Assembly (NCBI GenBank): GCA_026391795.1
Contig: JAPLDI010000050.1
Coordinates: forward strand, 1-64,000
Length of the DNA stretch: 64,000 nucleotides
Origin: Bacteroidota bacterium
GTDB lineage: Bacteria; Bacteroidota; Bacteroidia; Bacteroidales; FEN-979
Direction of reading: 5' to 3'
How positions within the stretch are numbered: position 1 is the first letter of the stretch; each line of letters starts with the position of its first letter. The notes below the pieces were generated by a model. It worked only from the letters and a program-made list of their open reading frames with translations, searched no databases and was not told where the DNA came from. The position numbers were made by a program, and so were the translations under genes. Below, in pieces: positions 2,921 through 59,536 of the stretch.

Positions 2921-3153
2921 GGTTATTCTTGAAATGAATGATAAACAAGAGGTTACTGCCCGGAAAGTCAATTGCCCTCGGTCCGCCCTACTAAAAATTT
3001 GTAACTTATATGCAGTTAAAGAGAATATAACCTGTTAACATTCTGAGAATAATTTTGGTAGGAAGGTAAGTAAGAATTATCTGTAACAACTTAATTATCT
3101 GCATACTATTAATTATAGGACATAAGCATTTTGTCAAAAATATGATTATCAAT
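2921..3153. repeat. Copy B of the ~200-bp non-coding direct repeat
   Basis: Same words as copy A at 2921, 2999, 3025 and 3102, with no net gap. Confidence 0.8.
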
Positions 3154-3217
3154 TAATTGTAGCCTAGAAATGCAAGACTATTCCGGACAATCTCCTCAAA
3201 TCTCTGAGGATAAATGA

Positions 3218-5362
3218 TCATTTTTTAATAAACTTCTCTACCACCCTTATCTTTTGATCATCAGTGATCATTACACAGTAAACACCAGGTACAAAATGAC
3301 TGATATTGATAGTTGTTATCTTTTTACTCGTAATAGAACTTGTAAATATTTTTCTTCCATCAGAATTGAAGATTACTATTTCTCCCGTTATTGGTCTTTG
3401 ACATTCAAGTGTCACCATGTCTGATGCAGGATTTGGAAACAATTTAATTGAATTGCTGGCCGGTTTATTTGTAATACCGACACAGCCATTTGCAGTAGTC
3501 AGAATTGTTCCATATTCTCCGCAGGTGACTCCGGCATTATCAGGAGTAATACATGCAGCATGCAGTGCACGGTTATTACTAATGGATTGATCAGTCCATG
3601 TCGCCCCTCCGTCAGTGGTCAGTTTTATGATTCCTGTAGCCGGATAGTACAGTAAACTGTCCAACATACCCACTGCATATCCCGTTAAAGCATCTCTAAA
3701 ACAGATGGAATAGAATTCATCATTCCCGCCAAAGGAAAATTCACTCCATGTAGCACCGCCATCCAGTGTTTTAAATATTTCCGAACCGGCAACATATCCG
3801 ATATTCTGATCTACAAAGTCGATTGAATAATAGAAATCAAAGGCGGAACTGGTTTTTATCGTAACCCAGGACGCTCCCCCATTGGTTGTCTTAATGATCG
3901 CTCCCCGTGCAACTGTAAATATTGTTGACGCATTGACTATACTTACACCGAGAAGGTTCTGAAGGGTCCCGGAAACCTGTGTGGTCCAGGAATTTCCTCC
4001 ATTTGTGGTTATTAAAATTGTTCCTGAATCCCCTACAGCAAACCCCAGATTTTCATCATAAAAATCAATGGAATTGAGCCGCTGGTTTGTCCCCGAGATC
4101 TGTATAACCCATGAAATCCCTCCATTAGTGGTTTTTAGTATCCTTCCCGATTGTCCTGCAATATATCCTGTACCAGATGATGGAAAATCAACCGCAGTAA
4201 GGTTAATTGTATCTCCTGTATTTATTATAGTCCAGGAATTTCCACCATCCATAGTCCTGACGATATCTCCTGAATCTCCAACTGCAACTCCAATATTGGA
4301 AAGTGGAAAGCAAATACCATTAAGGTTATGAAGTGTTCCGCTAAGCATGTTTGTAAAAGTATTCCCCCCATTTGATGTTTTAAACATTCTGCTCTCATAT
4401 TTTGTCCATTTCTTTTGTCCGACAAATATGAAATTATCAATATCCCTGCCCCATACAGAATAAAAATTCCCATCAGAGAGCACAGTTTTGATTGTCCAGG
4501 TAACCCCGCCATTGGTTGTTTTCAATACAATTCCACTGTCGCCGGAAGCGAATCCCGTAAGTGCATTTACAAAAAATACTGAATGCAGTCTTTCTGTTGT
4601 TCCTGAAACCAGCAACTGCCATGTAATACCACCATCCGTCGTTTTCAAAATTGTTCCGTGTTCTCCTACTACAAAACCGGTACTGTGATCAACAAATGAA
4701 ATTCCTTTAGTATACAGAATTGTGGAGGATGACCAGCAGGTATCCCATGTTAATCCGCCATCCGTTGTTCGCTTAATGATGCCATATACACTTGTGTAAA
4801 TCCCCTGGCCCGTGTAAATCCCGGTATCGGATGTCAGGAAGCATATTTTCTGAGGACACCCCGAGTCTGAAAGTTTATTCCATGTATTTCCACCGTCAGT
4901 TGTCTTATGTATTTCCTGCCATGAATTGCCCCACCACCCTGTGACCCATTTGCATGCATACCCTATGTCTGCCACAGGAAAACTAACGGAGTAAAAGTAA
5001 TCATATCCTTCTTGTATATTTATCCATGTATTGCCTCCATCAGTGGTTTTTAAAATGGTTCCACCAGCACCAACGACATATCCTGTATTCGCATCGGGAA
5101 AGGAAACATCATAGAGATCATTTAATGTACCAGAATTAAGAATATTCCATGTATCTCCCCCATCCGTGGTTTTCATAATTATTCCACCAGTACCGACGAT
5201 GTACCCGGTTGATGGATCAGTAAAATATATCCCCTCCATGACGTTTCCGCATGGTTTTGGATTTGACCATTCCCAGGTTTGGGCGGAAATGGAAAAGAAT
5301 AAAAAATTTAGAAACAGAAAAATGTAAATTTTTTTCATATTATTCTTTTTGTCAAAAGTCAA
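3218..5362 (-). CDS. Ycf48-like/BNR-repeat T9SS-sorted secreted protein
   Basis: Many 'TTDGGxTWxxxxSGTxxxLxxVxFxxxxxGYxVGxxGxILKTT' repeats; C-terminal 'LFPNPASDMVTLEC...VEKFIKK' sorting domain. Confidence 0.9.
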   Translation of the reverse strand: MTFDKKNNMKKIYIFLFLNFLFFSISAQTWEWSNPKPCGNVMEGIYFTDPSTGYIVGTGGIIMKTTDGGDTWNILNSGTLNDLYDVSFPDANTGYVVGAGGTILKTTDGGNTWINIQEGYDYFYSVSFPVADIGYACKWVTGWWGNSWQEIHKTTDGGNTWNKLSDSGCPQKICFLTSDTGIYTGQGIYTSVYGIIKRTTDGGLTWDTCWSSSTILYTKGISFVDHSTGFVVGEHGTILKTTDGGITWQLLVSGTTERLHSVFFVNALTGFASGDSGIVLKTTNGGVTWTIKTVLSDGNFYSVWGRDIDNFIFVGQKKWTKYESRMFKTSNGGNTFTNMLSGTLHNLNGICFPLSNIGVAVGDSGDIVRTMDGGNSWTIINTGDTINLTAVDFPSSGTGYIAGQSGRILKTTNGGISWVIQISGTNQRLNSIDFYDENLGFAVGDSGTILITTNGGNSWTTQVSGTLQNLLGVSIVNASTIFTVARGAIIKTTNGGASWVTIKTSSAFDFYYSIDFVDQNIGYVAGSEIFKTLDGGATWSEFSFGGNDEFYSICFRDALTGYAVGMLDSLLYYPATGIIKLTTDGGATWTDQSISNNRALHAACITPDNAGVTCGEYGTILTTANGCVGITNKPASNSIKLFPNPASDMVTLECQRPITGEIVIFNSDGRKIFTSSITSKKITTINISHFVPGVYCVMITDDQKIRVVEKFIKK

Positions 5363-5615
5363 ACAAATCTATAATAAAATTTTCAAACCAAACTATTTAT
5401 GTCCGATGACGAGATATTGGGAGAAATTACCTTTTTCCGGTGAAGGTTGAAACAGGTTAATATTAGACTAACTAACAGATAAGAAGAAAGATATGGTGAC
5501 TGAGCCGCCAGGCGAAGTCCCATATCAGGTTTTATAATAAAGCAAATTTTAATGCCGGGTAACGTTGAGTTCAACTATTGAAGACTCCACCGGTAAATTC
5601 AGAAAAGACGAATCC

Positions 5616-5746
5616 TTCTTCCAGTGTTCTTCCAATGTTCTTCCAATATTGATCCAATGGTCTCCAATTAAAAGCTGAAAATATCGGACCTGATTGGATG
5701 ACATTGGAAGAACATTGGATCAACATTGGATCAATAATGGAAGAAA
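5616..5746. repeat. Inverted array of 11-bp units (TTCTTCCAATG-type left, ATTGGAAGAAC-type right)
   Basis: Left units 5616-5670 (5 x 11 bp), right units 5693-5746 (one 10-bp and four 11-bp units) in reverse-complement orientation. Confidence 0.9.
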
Positions 5747-5756
5747 GAGATAATGA

Positions 5757-6230
5757 TTACCTCCAGATTGACTGGTGAAGGATGTCGCTGACACTGTTCG
5801 TGGAAATGAAGACGATTAATCTTGCCAGATGATAAATGCCAAGCGTGATCCCAAGGAAATAGGCGATCTTTTTACTATAAAAAATATTCCGGAAATATTC
5901 TTTCTTTGTGATCAGTTCGACCGATAAAACTACGATTACTGCAACACAGAATAAAAAAGTAAAGGGTCCGAACAGATGGTAATAGAAACTTTTAAGGATA
6001 TCCCCTTCGTAAAGATAGATGAGTGATTTGGTAATTCCGCAACCGGGACAGGGAAAACCTGTGATCATTTTGAAGGGACAGAGGGACTGATCTGTTTCGA
6101 TATGATCCCTGAAGTTCTGAAGCATTAAAAAATATGGAATTGCCAGCGTCACGAGAGCGCCGGCAATTCCATATATCTTACGTCTTATCCTTGTATTATT
6201 GGTATAGTTTGTTGATGTCACCCTGAACAA
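5757..6230 (-). CDS. DUF2752 domain membrane protein
   Basis: 'CPFKMITGFPCPGCGITKSLIYLYEGD' is the DUF2752 signature; start codon uncertain (TTG at 6230 overlaps the upstream gene). Confidence 0.85.
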   Translation of the reverse strand: MFRVTSTNYTNNTRIRRKIYGIAGALVTLAIPYFLMLQNFRDHIETDQSLCPFKMITGFPCPGCGITKSLIYLYEGDILKSFYYHLFGPFTFLFCVAVIVVLSVELITKKEYFRNIFYSKKIAYFLGITLGIYHLARLIVFISTNSVSDILHQSIWR

Positions 6231-6546
6231 TCATTGCAGCAACCATAGGAAAGAAAAATCCGAGAATCATGAGAAGAACAGATTGATCCTTTCCGGCATT
6301 TCCGGTAATCTCATACACCTTCGGCAATCCCTCTTTCCCTGCCAGGTAATAGAAGTACAGGTTAACTGGCATGCAGCACCCTGAGAAAATTGCAATGGGC
6401 TGCGAGATGATTTCTTTTTCAGCAACAGCGTTCAGTACTTCTGCCACTTTGATATTCCAGTAGATTAAATACAAACCGCAGGTTACAAAGCCGAGAAGTA
6501 ATACTACAATTGGCTCATTTTTAAATTGTGGAATTGGTTGTGTCAT
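6196..6546 (-). CDS. DUF4234-like small membrane protein
   Basis: 'PIVVLLLGFVTCGLYLIYWNIKVAEVLN'; start reassigned to ATG at 6546 (MTQPIPQF). Confidence 0.7.
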   Translation of the reverse strand: MTQPIPQFKNEPIVVLLLGFVTCGLYLIYWNIKVAEVLNAVAEKEIISQPIAIFSGCCMPVNLYFYYLAGKEGLPKVYEITGNAGKDQSVLLMILGFFFPMVAAMIVQGDINKLYQ

Positions 6547-6773
6547 CTGTTTTTGTTTTTGAGTTTCCCTACTCCTATGGATTTTCGGTATATCCCCGTT
6601 TTTTAAATGGTTTCTGGTCTCCATTATTAGTTGGCAATTTAGTAAATATTTTTAAGTGGAGAGAAGTGTTTGAAAAAAATAGTGAGAAATTTAATTAAAA
6701 TCAAATATATACTTTTTATTTCATTTATTGGTTTTATTTAGAGAACAGTTCCCTATCAAACAAACTTTGGGTT

Positions 6774-7580
6774 ATGGTCACAATCTCAGAAAATACAATG
6801 CTCTCGCAGGAAGATCTGATCAGTTTACAGACTGCAAAATCAATCCTTGAGAACCCGGGTCTGACGGCAAGGATCACCGATCTGATCGGAAGACCCATTG
6901 AGGAAGGATTTAAACTCCTGCCAAAAAATATTAATGACAAGATTGGTAGCATTACCCAGGCATCTTTGTTGAAAGGACTTGAATTTGCGGTACTCACAAT
7001 GGGTGAAACCGAGAGAAAGAGTTCGAAGGACTGGCTGCATAAATTATTGATAACCGGATCGGGTGTGGCGGGTGGTATGGCAGGATTTGCAGCACTTTCC
7101 ATCGAGTTACCCGTTTCAACATGCATCATCCTGAGGTCCATCGCAGATATTGCCCGAAGTGAAGGCCATGACATCCGGCAACTGGAAGTGAAATTATCCT
7201 GCCTTGAGGTTTTTGCCCTGGGTGGCGCTGATCGGAAGCACGAAACTGTCAGCAGTGGTTATTGGGCGGTTCGCAGCATGCTCGCAAAATCTGTTTCTGA
7301 GGCGGCTGCATTCATTGCCGAAAGAGGCCTGGCTGAAAAAGGGGCTCCTCCCCTGCTGCGGCTGATTGCAGCCATCGCTTCCCGCTTCAGTGTTGTGATC
7401 ACGGAAGAAGTTGCAGCCAAAGCCATTCCCATCGTGGGTGCAATTACAGGAGGAACCATCAATGTTTTATTCATTAACCACTTTCAGGAGATGGCACGTG
7501 GCCATTTCATTGTGAAGAGGCTGGAGAAAAAATACGGGACCGGGCTGATTGAGAATGTGTACCAGGATACGACAATTTAA
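6774..7580 (+). CDS. EcsC family protein
   Basis: 'HKLLITGSGVAGGMAGFAALSIELPVSTCIILRSIADIARSEGHD...CLEVFALGG' matches the EcsC family pattern. Confidence 0.85.
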   Translation: MVTISENTMLSQEDLISLQTAKSILENPGLTARITDLIGRPIEEGFKLLPKNINDKIGSITQASLLKGLEFAVLTMGETERKSSKDWLHKLLITGSGVAGGMAGFAALSIELPVSTCIILRSIADIARSEGHDIRQLEVKLSCLEVFALGGADRKHETVSSGYWAVRSMLAKSVSEAAAFIAERGLAEKGAPPLLRLIAAIASRFSVVITEEVAAKAIPIVGAITGGTINVLFINHFQEMARGHFIVKRLEKKYGTGLIENVYQDTTI

Positions 7581-7599
7581 CTGCTCCCGCAAAGAGTAA

Positions 7600-9027
7600 T
7601 TATTGATTTCGCAGGCGAAGAGATAACCATGCTCCTTTAAGAATTCCTTTAAACCACTTCCAGTATTCCTTCCTTTGGAGTAACACCTGCCAAACCGCAA
7701 TGCTTCCGAGTACCGTAAACTGCTTAATGAATCTGAAGATGCCTCCCTCACCATAAAACGCAGTGGTTAGCGCCTGCAAGATGCTTTTACGGATAAAATA
7801 GACGGTGACTGCCTTATTGGTCGGGACCATTCCTGCAAGAATTCCGCCGCAAATGGTCGTATATCTTTCATCTCTTTTTGCCTGGGCAATAAAAATTTTC
7901 AAAACCTTCATCCACAGTGGATTCAAATTCCTGTTGCGGATGACCTGAAGGACAAGATTGGATAAACTCATGTCAAACCCGATCTCCCTTCGCACTTTTT
8001 GATCAAAGATCTTTAAAGCACTACCGCTCAGGTCATTTGCTGCAAAACAGGAGATAATACTCTCCGCAGCCCACCTTCCGCTTTGCAATGCATATTGAAT
8101 GCCTTCACCATTGATCGAGTTGATCAGCCCTGCAGCATCCCCGGTAAGAAGAAGCCTGTCTTTTACAATCGTCGCATCAGGATTATAGATGGATAATGGC
8201 CATCCTTCTACTTTCCCAACCATCGTTCCGGTTCCGATATTTGCTTTCAGGGAAGGATCATTTTCAAGGATATCGTTCAGCAACTCTTTCAGGTTCGTCT
8301 CCGTTTTTGGAAAATTCTCCAGGCTCATTCCAACACCCACATTGGCCGTAGTCGGCCCCATCGGGAAAAACCAGTAATAACCTGGAAAGCTTTTGCTGGT
8401 GAAGAACAATTCTGCCTGGTTCGGAACCAGATTTACATTCTCAAAATAGGCACGAACTGCAACGATTCTGTGTTGAGGATCAGGTCTTTTACCATTCATT
8501 ATTCGTGCAACTGTACTGTTGCTGCCATCCGCGCCGACAAGAAGTTTTACTTTAAAATTTTGTTCCTTATCTTCCTGTTTACAATCAATTGCTACATGAT
8601 TGTCATAAACGGTATAATGCTCCAGTTTACATCGTGTAATAACGTTAACTCCTTGCTTTCTGGCTGCTTCAAGTACCAGGTTGTCAAGCAGTACTCTCGG
8701 GAATACCCGGCCAAAATTCACCATCCCATCCAGGTTTGGGATGTCACCGGTTATCAGCTTTTGCCCGTCAATATATACTGCGGCGCAGGTTATTACATTG
8801 GCTTGCTGGAAATCGGTCAGATCTCCAATGCCGATATTCAATAACTCATTGATGCCTGTCGGGCTGACAAATCCACCACAAATTTTTTCTCTGGGAAAAT
8901 CTTCTGAGTCTATCAGGATTACCTTGTTTCCTGCTTTGGCCAGGTAATAAGCGCAGATGGATCCGGAGGGTCCGGCCCCGGCGATTAATACATCTGCATC
9001 ATACTGTATTTGGGAATTCGTCTCCAG
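7600..9027 (-). CDS. Geranylgeranyl reductase-family FAD-dependent oxidoreductase
   Basis: Supplied ORF (7600-8841) lacks the N-terminus; reading on in the same frame gives 'YDADVLIAGAGPSGSICAYYLAKAGNKVILIDSEDFPREKICGGFVSPTGINELLNIGIGDL'. 'LLTGDAAGLINSINGEGIQYALQSGR' is also typical. Start is uncertain: no in-frame ATG/GTG/TTG upstream; CTG at 9027 is one option. Confidence 0.85.
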   Translation of the reverse strand: METNSQIQYDADVLIAGAGPSGSICAYYLAKAGNKVILIDSEDFPREKICGGFVSPTGINELLNIGIGDLTDFQQANVITCAAVYIDGQKLITGDIPNLDGMVNFGRVFPRVLLDNLVLEAARKQGVNVITRCKLEHYTVYDNHVAIDCKQEDKEQNFKVKLLVGADGSNSTVARIMNGKRPDPQHRIVAVRAYFENVNLVPNQAELFFTSKSFPGYYWFFPMGPTTANVGVGMSLENFPKTETNLKELLNDILENDPSLKANIGTGTMVGKVEGWPLSIYNPDATIVKDRLLLTGDAAGLINSINGEGIQYALQSGRWAAESIISCFAANDLSGSALKIFDQKVRREIGFDMSLSNLVLQVIRNRNLNPLWMKVLKIFIAQAKRDERYTTICGGILAGMVPTNKAVTVYFIRKSILQALTTAFYGEGGIFRFIKQFTVLGSIAVWQVLLQRKEYWKWFKGILKGAWLSLRLRNQ

Positions 9028-31983: not shown

Positions 31984-32033
31984 AATAAAGAGATGACTGA
32001 GCATCTTATACACAGAACTCCCTAACCTTTCTA

Positions 32034-32158
32034 CTTTACAAACTTTACAAACTTTACAAACTTTACAAACTTTACAAACTTTATAAACTTTATAAACTTT
32101 ACAAACTTTACAAACTTTACAAACTTTACAAACTTTACAAACTTTATAAACTTTACAA
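32034..32158. repeat. 9-bp tandem repeat (CTTTACAAA / CTTTATAAA), ~14 copies
   Basis: 13 full units 32034-32150 plus a partial unit; ends 5 bp before ATG of aat. Confidence 0.95.
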
Positions 32159-37915: not shown

Positions 37916-38100
37916 TTTTTCCCCCTTATATTAGGTCGTGAGATTTTTTTATGCCTTGCCCCCAACGCTTGCACAAATTCCTGAGTTGAGGTTGTCCGGC
38001 AAAGCCAGATCCTGGAATTAACATTGCAATATAATGAAAATAGCTGTAATATTTACTGTAACCGGGAATTTTTGTTTTCAGGGGACACTCTGCAGAAGAT

Positions 38101-38219
38101 CTACAGTCTTCCTACAGTCTTCCTACAGTCTTCCTATAAGGTCAAAATGTTTTTTGCATTTTGTTTCTGAAGCGAGACTGTAGGAAGCTTATAGGAAGAC
38201 TGTAGGAAGACTGTAGGAC
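38101..38219. repeat. Inverted array of 11-bp units (CTACAGTCTTC left, GACTGTAGGAA right)
   Basis: Left units 38101-38133 plus partial; right units 38176-38219; perfect 31-bp arms 38110-38140 / 38188-38218. Confidence 0.95.
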
Positions 38220-45536: not shown

Positions 45537-45554
45537 GGTGAACAGGTTGATCAT

Positions 45555-45634
45555 TGTCTTCCCCCGGGCTTGTCTTCCCCCGGGCTTGTCTTCCCCCGGG
45601 CTTGTCTTCCCCCGGGCTTGTCTTCCCCCGGGCT
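45555..45634. repeat. 16-bp tandem repeat TGTCTTCCCCCGGGCT x5
   Basis: Units start at 45555, 45571, 45587, 45603 and 45619; the last unit forms hairpin CCCCCGGGC-TTTA-GCCCGGGGG with downstream sequence. Confidence 0.95.
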
Positions 45635-45716
45635 TTAGCCCGGGGGTACAAAAGAAAAATATTCAAAGGGCTTTAGCCCAGAATCTTATCAGAAAAAAGT
45701 CGTAATAGTTCTAAAG

Positions 45717-59278: not shown

Positions 59279-59313
59279 TTTCAGCGTAACCAATACGCTG
59301 AAATTCGGAACGA

Positions 59314-59536
59314 TAGAATAAAAGGAAATTACAACAGTATGACCCCGTCGGGGTCCAGATATTTATAGAATAAAAGGAAATTACAACATTATGACCCCGT
59401 AGGGGTCAGATATTTATAGAATAAAAGGAAATTACAACAGTATGACCCCGTAGGGGTCAGATATTTATAGAATAAAAGGAAATTACAACAGTATGACCCC
59501 GTAGGGGTCAGATATCTATAGAATAAAAGGAAATTA
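59314..59536. repeat. ~51-bp tandem repeat (4 copies plus partial), each with GACCCCGTAGGGGTC palindrome
   Basis: Unit TAGAATAAAAGGAAATTACAACAGTATGACCCCGTAGGGGTCAGATATTTA; starts at 59314, 59366, 59417, 59468 and 59519. Confidence 0.97.

Follow-up and report, generated by a model that had tools for sequence, protein, structure and literature searches.

A MITE-like reading of inverted 11-bp arrays dispersed between the genes of a Bacteroidota genome

In the ParR/parC iterons of plasmid R1 about five 11-bp repeats stand on each side of a short spacer, and parC is found at its parMR operon, one per plasmid. The intergenic elements that we describe here resemble parC in having paired 11-bp arrays of about five units, but they are present in many chromosomal copies and their arrays are inverted. 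A second point of comparison is the BrickBuilt MITE of Porphyromonas gingivalis, which occurs in about 19 intergenic copies of limited host range, present or absent according to the strain, and is made of tandem units, one half of each being conserved and the other variable, for which long stem-loops are predicted; its units are 23-nt direct repeats with a leader on one side and a tail on the other, its terminal inverted repeats are of the IS5 type, and target-site duplications (TSDs) accompany three of the four testable copies (PMC4596501). The present elements are likewise intergenic tandem-unit copies, at least 19 in number, with a conserved and a variable part in the unit and a limited distribution; unlike BrickBuilt, they have units of 11 bp in arrays inverted on either side of an A-rich centre that is conserved, and neither an IS5-type terminal inverted repeat in the aligned copies nor a TSD. 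Of the elements described so far, BrickBuilt comes closest to them in kind, as a precedent for a MITE-like reading and not as a proven homologue.

The REPs, as introduced in one account (PMC3733652), are palindromes of 20–40 bp, most of which bear a GTAG or a CGTC tag at one end. With the REP/BIME systems of the RAYT (Y1_Tnp) genes our elements have in common that they are dispersed intergenic palindromes, often near the 3' ends of genes, in a genome that carries five Y1_Tnp genes; the elements, however, are 120–210 bp long and none adjoins any of those five genes, which are flanked by palindromes of the CCCTACGGG and GGGCTGAAGCCC type and not by 11-bp arrays. The short simple repeats of the same genome and the (TTCCN7)n arrays of Bacteroidales are also tandem, often intergenic, and fast in changing their units, but they are one-sided, direct and devoid of a conserved centre, and periods other than 11 prevail among the simple repeats. 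A literature search on 11-bp inverted arrays returned nothing specific. The MITE-like dispersed repeat is a known kind; this type of element is apparently new to the literature.

The arrays of the window and their neighbourhood

In the window—the whole stretch of 64,000 nucleotides that was analysed—the left array of locus 1 (5616–5670, plus strand) comprises the five units TTCTTCCAGTG, TTCTTCCAATG, TTCTTCCAATA, TTGATCCAATG and GTCTCCAATTA, each about 11 bp long, and the right array (5693–5746, minus strand) five inverted units, ATTGGATGAC, ATTGGAAGAAC, ATTGGATCAAC, ATTGGATCAAT and AATGGAAGAAA, the innermost of which is a 10-mer. All ten units quoted in the original prediction are present where it had placed them. 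Between the arrays lies a centre (5671–5692, with no strand assigned) that is a degenerate form of the A-rich centre conserved in other copies. A repeat finder delimited arms of 56 nt (5613–5668 and 5693–5748) that are 77% complementary around a 24-nt centre, and Tandem Repeats Finder gave a period of 11 on either side. The RNA folds of the two strands reach −57.5 and −58.2 kcal/mol (z −6.6 and −6.9), none of 200 shuffles being equally good; the array is real and, with a fold z of about −7, well past the expectation of chance. A fixed TCTTCC in every unit, as first proposed, was not what the units contained: CTTCC occurs in only three of the left units and its complement in two of the right ones, the shared core being TCCAAT.

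Locus 1 lies 9–10 nt past the stop codon of a DUF2752 gene (5757–6230, minus strand) and precedes by about 250 nt the start of a Ycf48-like gene that encodes a type IX sorting domain (Por-tail; 3218–5362, minus strand), so that the neighbourhood was correctly described at the outset. The DUF2752 proteins of congeners are only 25–30% identical, which leaves no close orthologue by which to compare the site of locus 1 or to judge the age of this copy. Locus 1 is among the more decayed copies, its centre being degenerate and its variable dinucleotides mismatched. Upstream of the DUF2752 gene stands a DUF4234 gene, at whose start we observed a DUF805 RNA (RF03081, 77.7 bits; 6562–6629, minus strand), a cis-regulatory RNA that here bears the name of another domain family.

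The second array of the window, locus 2 (38100–38219), is a perfect 31-bp version whose unit differs from that of locus 1: its left array (38100–38141, plus strand) of CTACAGTCTTC units pairs perfectly over 31 bp with the right inverted array (38175–38219, minus strand) of GGAAGACTGTA units, and its A-rich centre (38147–38159, minus strand) reads ATGCAAAAAACAT on the minus strand and is common to a copy on contig C1. Within 464 kb of this genome—the window plus 20 other stretches of 20 kb—loci 1 and 2 were the only palindromes with arms longer than 30 nt, except for one self-palindromic simple repeat of 9 bp.

The window holds other repeats as well. At 45554–45645 the 16-bp unit TTGTCTTCCCCCGGGC occurs in five perfect copies with TTTAGCCCGGGGG after them, which stretch we read as a REP-like palindrome (cccgggctttagcccggg) with a multiplied left half; at 59313–59536 a 51-bp unit, in which the palindrome GACCCCGTAGGGGTC is contained, is repeated 4.4 times and has the 7-bp repeat GGATGCT on either flank; and at 32033–32158, between two genes, the 9-bp unit ACTTTACAA occurs 14 times.

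Copies across the genome and the features that they conserve

Pattern searches of the genome (3.76 Mb in 50 contigs) revealed at least 19 intergenic elements of the same architecture, namely two arrays of 11-bp units in inverted polarity around a short centre, which in most copies carries A(6–8)CAG. The predicted class of periodic inverted arrays, with an 11-bp period and units varying by locus, thus does exist, at a period of 11.0. Three sequence families were distinguished. Family A comprises further copies with the unit of locus 1 on C8, C12, C18, C23, C36 and C38, and family B consists of locus 2 and a second copy on C1, whose centre is identical. Ten more elements came from a search with A(6–8)CAG (C7, C10, C15, C17, C18a, C19a, C19b, C38b, C43 and C49; C7 and C15 were found by the unit-pattern search also) and have other units, such as CTTTCAGCTTC or GGAGCTATGAT. 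In this T/S family the arms are combined as TT (C17, C18a), SS (C10, C15, C19a, C19b) or TS (C7, C38b, C43, C49), these last being four separate sites with unpaired arms; the outer end of the T arm reads TGATCATGTTNTCTTCATGTTCGCTTCGGGATTCC. Each copy is about 120–210 bp long, and homology between copies mostly stops at the ends of the element, spanning about 125 bp in family A and 180–210 bp in T/S; C43 and C49 have in addition some shared sequence beyond it on one side. The elements have no coding capacity, the one case that fell inside an open reading frame concerning a short frame of 103 aa that is probably spurious. Dispersed, non-coding and intergenic in at least 19 copies, the elements are in this respect what is expected of a MITE.

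We accordingly favour, with a probability of about 0.55, the reading that locus 1 belongs, as a somewhat degenerate member, to a dispersed intergenic repeat of a MITE-like, non-autonomous kind with 11-bp minisatellites as arms, and is not a part of the neighbouring genes. To this reading lead the number of copies, the 11-bp period and inverted polarity, the conservation of a centre whose arms are replaceable, the confinement of most homology to the element, and the persistence of the four mixed-arm copies. The same data bear on the notion that locus 1 was produced by chance or by mutation alone, as an 11-bp minisatellite that was inverted at this one place and belongs to no class. A genome rich in simple repeats of 7–9 bp, within an order in which one-sided 11-bp arrays occur, lends that notion some plausibility; yet it is highly improbable and already contradicted by the copy number and the mostly shared centre, to which may be added that the centre-found copies all have period 11 and that the 464 kb contained no further tandem-armed palindrome save the 9-bp simple repeat.

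In the ten centre-found copies arm identity is 0.61 at lag 11 and 0.57, 0.47, 0.41 and 0.37 at lags 22, 33, 44 and 55, against at most 0.33 at lags that are not multiples of 11; and since neither arm nor period had been part of the query, the exact period of 11.0 bp is not an artefact of how the copies were found. Among the other tandem repeats of the genome, units of 7–9 bp predominate. From family to family the unit sequence differs, whereas period and inverted polarity are constant. Within family A the core TCCAAT is shared and the bases preceding it vary: in the left arm of seven copies the TCCAA columns had 0 substitutions in 140, against 32 in 168 at the other six positions (chi-square p 5e-8). 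The proposed unit of TCTTCC plus five locus-specific bases is not supported, TCCAAT being invariant in family A and the ten further copies having other units. Slippage alone does not account for the constancy of 11 bp, and a purely selfish drifting array would not by itself predict the conservation of the family A core; both points count against the MITE-like reading.

These two properties keep alive another reading, namely that the arrays are phased, iteron-like sites for a host DNA-binding protein, with a nucleoprotein complex nucleated at the centre; the elements would then be multiplied host sites serving nucleoid organisation, partition or regulation. A spacing of 11 bp puts the units on about one face of the DNA, and the invariance of TCCAAT beside bases free to vary is what such sites would show, as is the retention of the 11-bp period in arms that do not pair. 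We nevertheless consider this reading unlikely, because the units of A, B and T/S are so different that a single protein would need a loose specificity, because an exact 11.0 drifts relative to the 10.5 bp of a B-DNA turn across five units, and because no candidate protein is known.

Fifteen of the 19 copies fold at z values of −6.7 to −12.7, whereas the four TS copies fold no better than their shuffles (−0.6 to −1.6). The arms match within a copy at 28.8 and between copies at 30.0 (permutation P 0.76), and we thus found no covariation of paired bases as a sign of a selected RNA structure; regular arm-to-arm copying, or selection for pairing, would have led to a better match within the copy, which was not observed. 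That result, together with the four copies that form no hairpin, indicates that pairing is not the preserved feature—sequence rather than pairing being kept, as binding sites for a protein would have it—and that the hairpin is a frequent outcome of the architecture, not its constant. The supposition that the array was maintained as a long hairpin does not agree with these figures.

The same measurements enter into a further reading, quite unlikely in our estimation, according to which the elements act as RNA: a long double-stranded stem after the stop codon, with one unit per A-form turn and an A-rich loop, would end, protect or process transcripts. The helical pitch of A-form RNA is 11 bp per turn, which the period of 11.0 matches exactly, and the 15 strong folds are in keeping with such a stem; the four unfolded copies and the missing covariation are at variance with it.

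Gene context, site comparison and the question of a mover

By kind of interval, the copies of this genome were 14 co-directional, 2 convergent and 2 divergent, according to gene calls made by longest-ORF heuristics. Of the co-directional copies, seven are no farther than 60 nt from a stop codon and none comes that close to a start, and the addition of 37 loci from other Bacteroidota indicated a mild depletion between divergent genes (4 of 44 vs. 50 of 222, p 0.04). Both observations suit the RNA reading; but the centre faces the sense strand of the genes in nine copies and the opposite strand in five, with no bias (p 0.42), which is unfavourable to an RNA and speaks for a protein-binding site. 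Furthermore, an intrinsic terminator—a G+C-rich stem with a run of T—was discarded for locus 1, none having been called at its array within the scanned 3000–8000, and Rfam 15 at gathering score returned no family for the arrays of the window or the sampled copies, its matches being the DUF805 RNA of the window and one tRNA, both away from the elements. The promoter pattern TTG-N(17–23)-TAnnTTTG was not found inside the elements and occurs only downstream of C17 and C38. The gene context fits an insertion that is tolerated away from promoters, for which no RNA role is required.

One site permitted a comparison with relatives. The elements C38a and C38b stand side by side between a gene of 248 aa and rpsL, in an interval of 733 nt. 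Five relatives keep this gene order, two from the genus (G002, G003) and three from the family (G006, G008, G011); in them the interval measures 389–501 nt and contains neither element, while the rpsL promoter and leader still align. Such presence and absence at an orthologous site, at this one site and at a divergence too great for boundaries at the level of the base, together with the intergenic placement, supports the MITE-like reading; for protein sites of the host, in contrast, the absence from congeners at this site is unfavourable. It also conflicts with the qualification of the arrays as old, the five relatives including two congeners, although locus 1 itself is not dated thereby. In array form, the A(6–8)CAG centre motif and the family A unit were absent from all four congeners, and among 100 relatives no match to the centre motif elsewhere lay within such a hairpin, which likewise favours the MITE-like reading.

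Against the MITE-like reading it counts that neither a TSD nor, among the Y1_Tnp genes, an autonomous partner was found. The longest word shared by the two flanks averaged 5.2 nt, against 5.7 by chance, in a test that is weak because the outer ends are blurred. The five Y1_Tnp genes of the genome, which were checked for a partner, have other palindromes beside them or none—those at L370, L371 and L372, RAYT-like, being near their own CCCTACGGG, GGGCTGAAGCCC and GGCGCTTTAGCGCC—and mobilisation by a RAYT was rejected, no 11-bp array adjoining any of the five. Under the MITE-like reading, copies would reach new sites through an enzyme acting in trans or through template-switching DNA synthesis; slippage would then alter the number and the sequence of the units; and occasional copying from arm to arm, or inversion between copies, could yield perfect hairpins and mixed-arm copies alike, and TS copies could by either route have given rise to the TT and SS elements. 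Effects on neighbouring genes, such as that of a long 3'-UTR hairpin formed where an element is transcribed, would be a by-product and not the reason for which the elements exist.

Occurrence beyond this genome and significance

A GTDB-wide scan of cell genomes for inverted TTCC or WTCC arrays at 11-bp spacing gave 64 stretches, a count made with no control at other periods, which limits the claim of a period of 11 outside this genome. A single Paludibacter MAG supplied 12 of them and four Chitinophaga species five, and several Bacteroidales and Prevotella MAGs had pairs; the unit is particular to each genome, TTCCCACTTAA, TTCCTCCGTTC and TTCCATATATG being examples, and further 11-bp palindromes that the pattern did not require are again present in these stretches. 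In Paludibacter 11 of the 12 stretches align over about 250–300 bp, of which a leader makes up about 140 bp, and such multi-copy sets with other units in single genomes lend support to the MITE-like reading. Matches in Blautia and Lachnoclostridium resembled DnaA boxes (TTATCCACA) and were left out of the count; in two Lachnospiraceae contigs (L242, L264) inverted arrays of TTATCCAC at 11-bp spacing similarly resemble DnaA-box clusters. A viral origin was discarded, viral contigs having 9 stretches at period 11 vs. 15 at period 10 and 37 at period 12, the last number being in part what coding repeats would give; the lack of a preference for 11 there limits the same claim.

When 395 Bacteroidia were sampled at random, convincing inverted TTCC arrays were confined to the present genome, from which we conclude that the class is patchy. 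Of 295 genomes of the order, 18 had one-sided (TTCCN7)4 arrays, about as frequent as the reversed control CCTT, so that TTCC is not a signature, and the idea of TCTTCC as a class motif across the order has to be abandoned. The reversed-control pattern itself led to a genome of the same family, G019, in which two 11-bp arrays of different units surround a conserved centre at several loci: L147, L150, L152 and L156 have TTCCTCTAACC on the left, a centre of CTGTCCCC..TCAAGG and GGTCTATGGTA on the right, all units being of 11 bp. In these elements we also observed a conserved upstream ATATCGTATATTTGTT, Bacteroidetes-promoter-like in two, and CTATACTGAAAAAACTATAC downstream in three. A more far-reaching reading, tentative and in our view improbable, is that of a class of dispersed Bacteroidota elements recognised and copied by helical phase or shape and not by a fixed sequence, in which the unit is replaceable and only the exact 11-bp period, the inverted polarity and a short centre are kept; it would involve an undescribed machinery of copying or binding.

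On the MITE-like reading, both arrays of the window are accounted for with no role for the Ycf48-like or the DUF2752 gene. Strong hairpin z-scores in such genomes, moreover, need not indicate a functional RNA, which calls for caution. Whereas the intergenic repeats of bacteria are usually sorted either by sequence, as REPs and MITEs, or as simple repeats, the elements described here combine the two: they disperse in the manner of a MITE and yet have minisatellite arms, in which one unit gives way to another at a constant period and polarity. The question that this combination raises is a testable one, namely whether the 11 bp are enforced by a DNA-bound protein, by the helical turn of a double-stranded RNA, or by the mechanism of copying.
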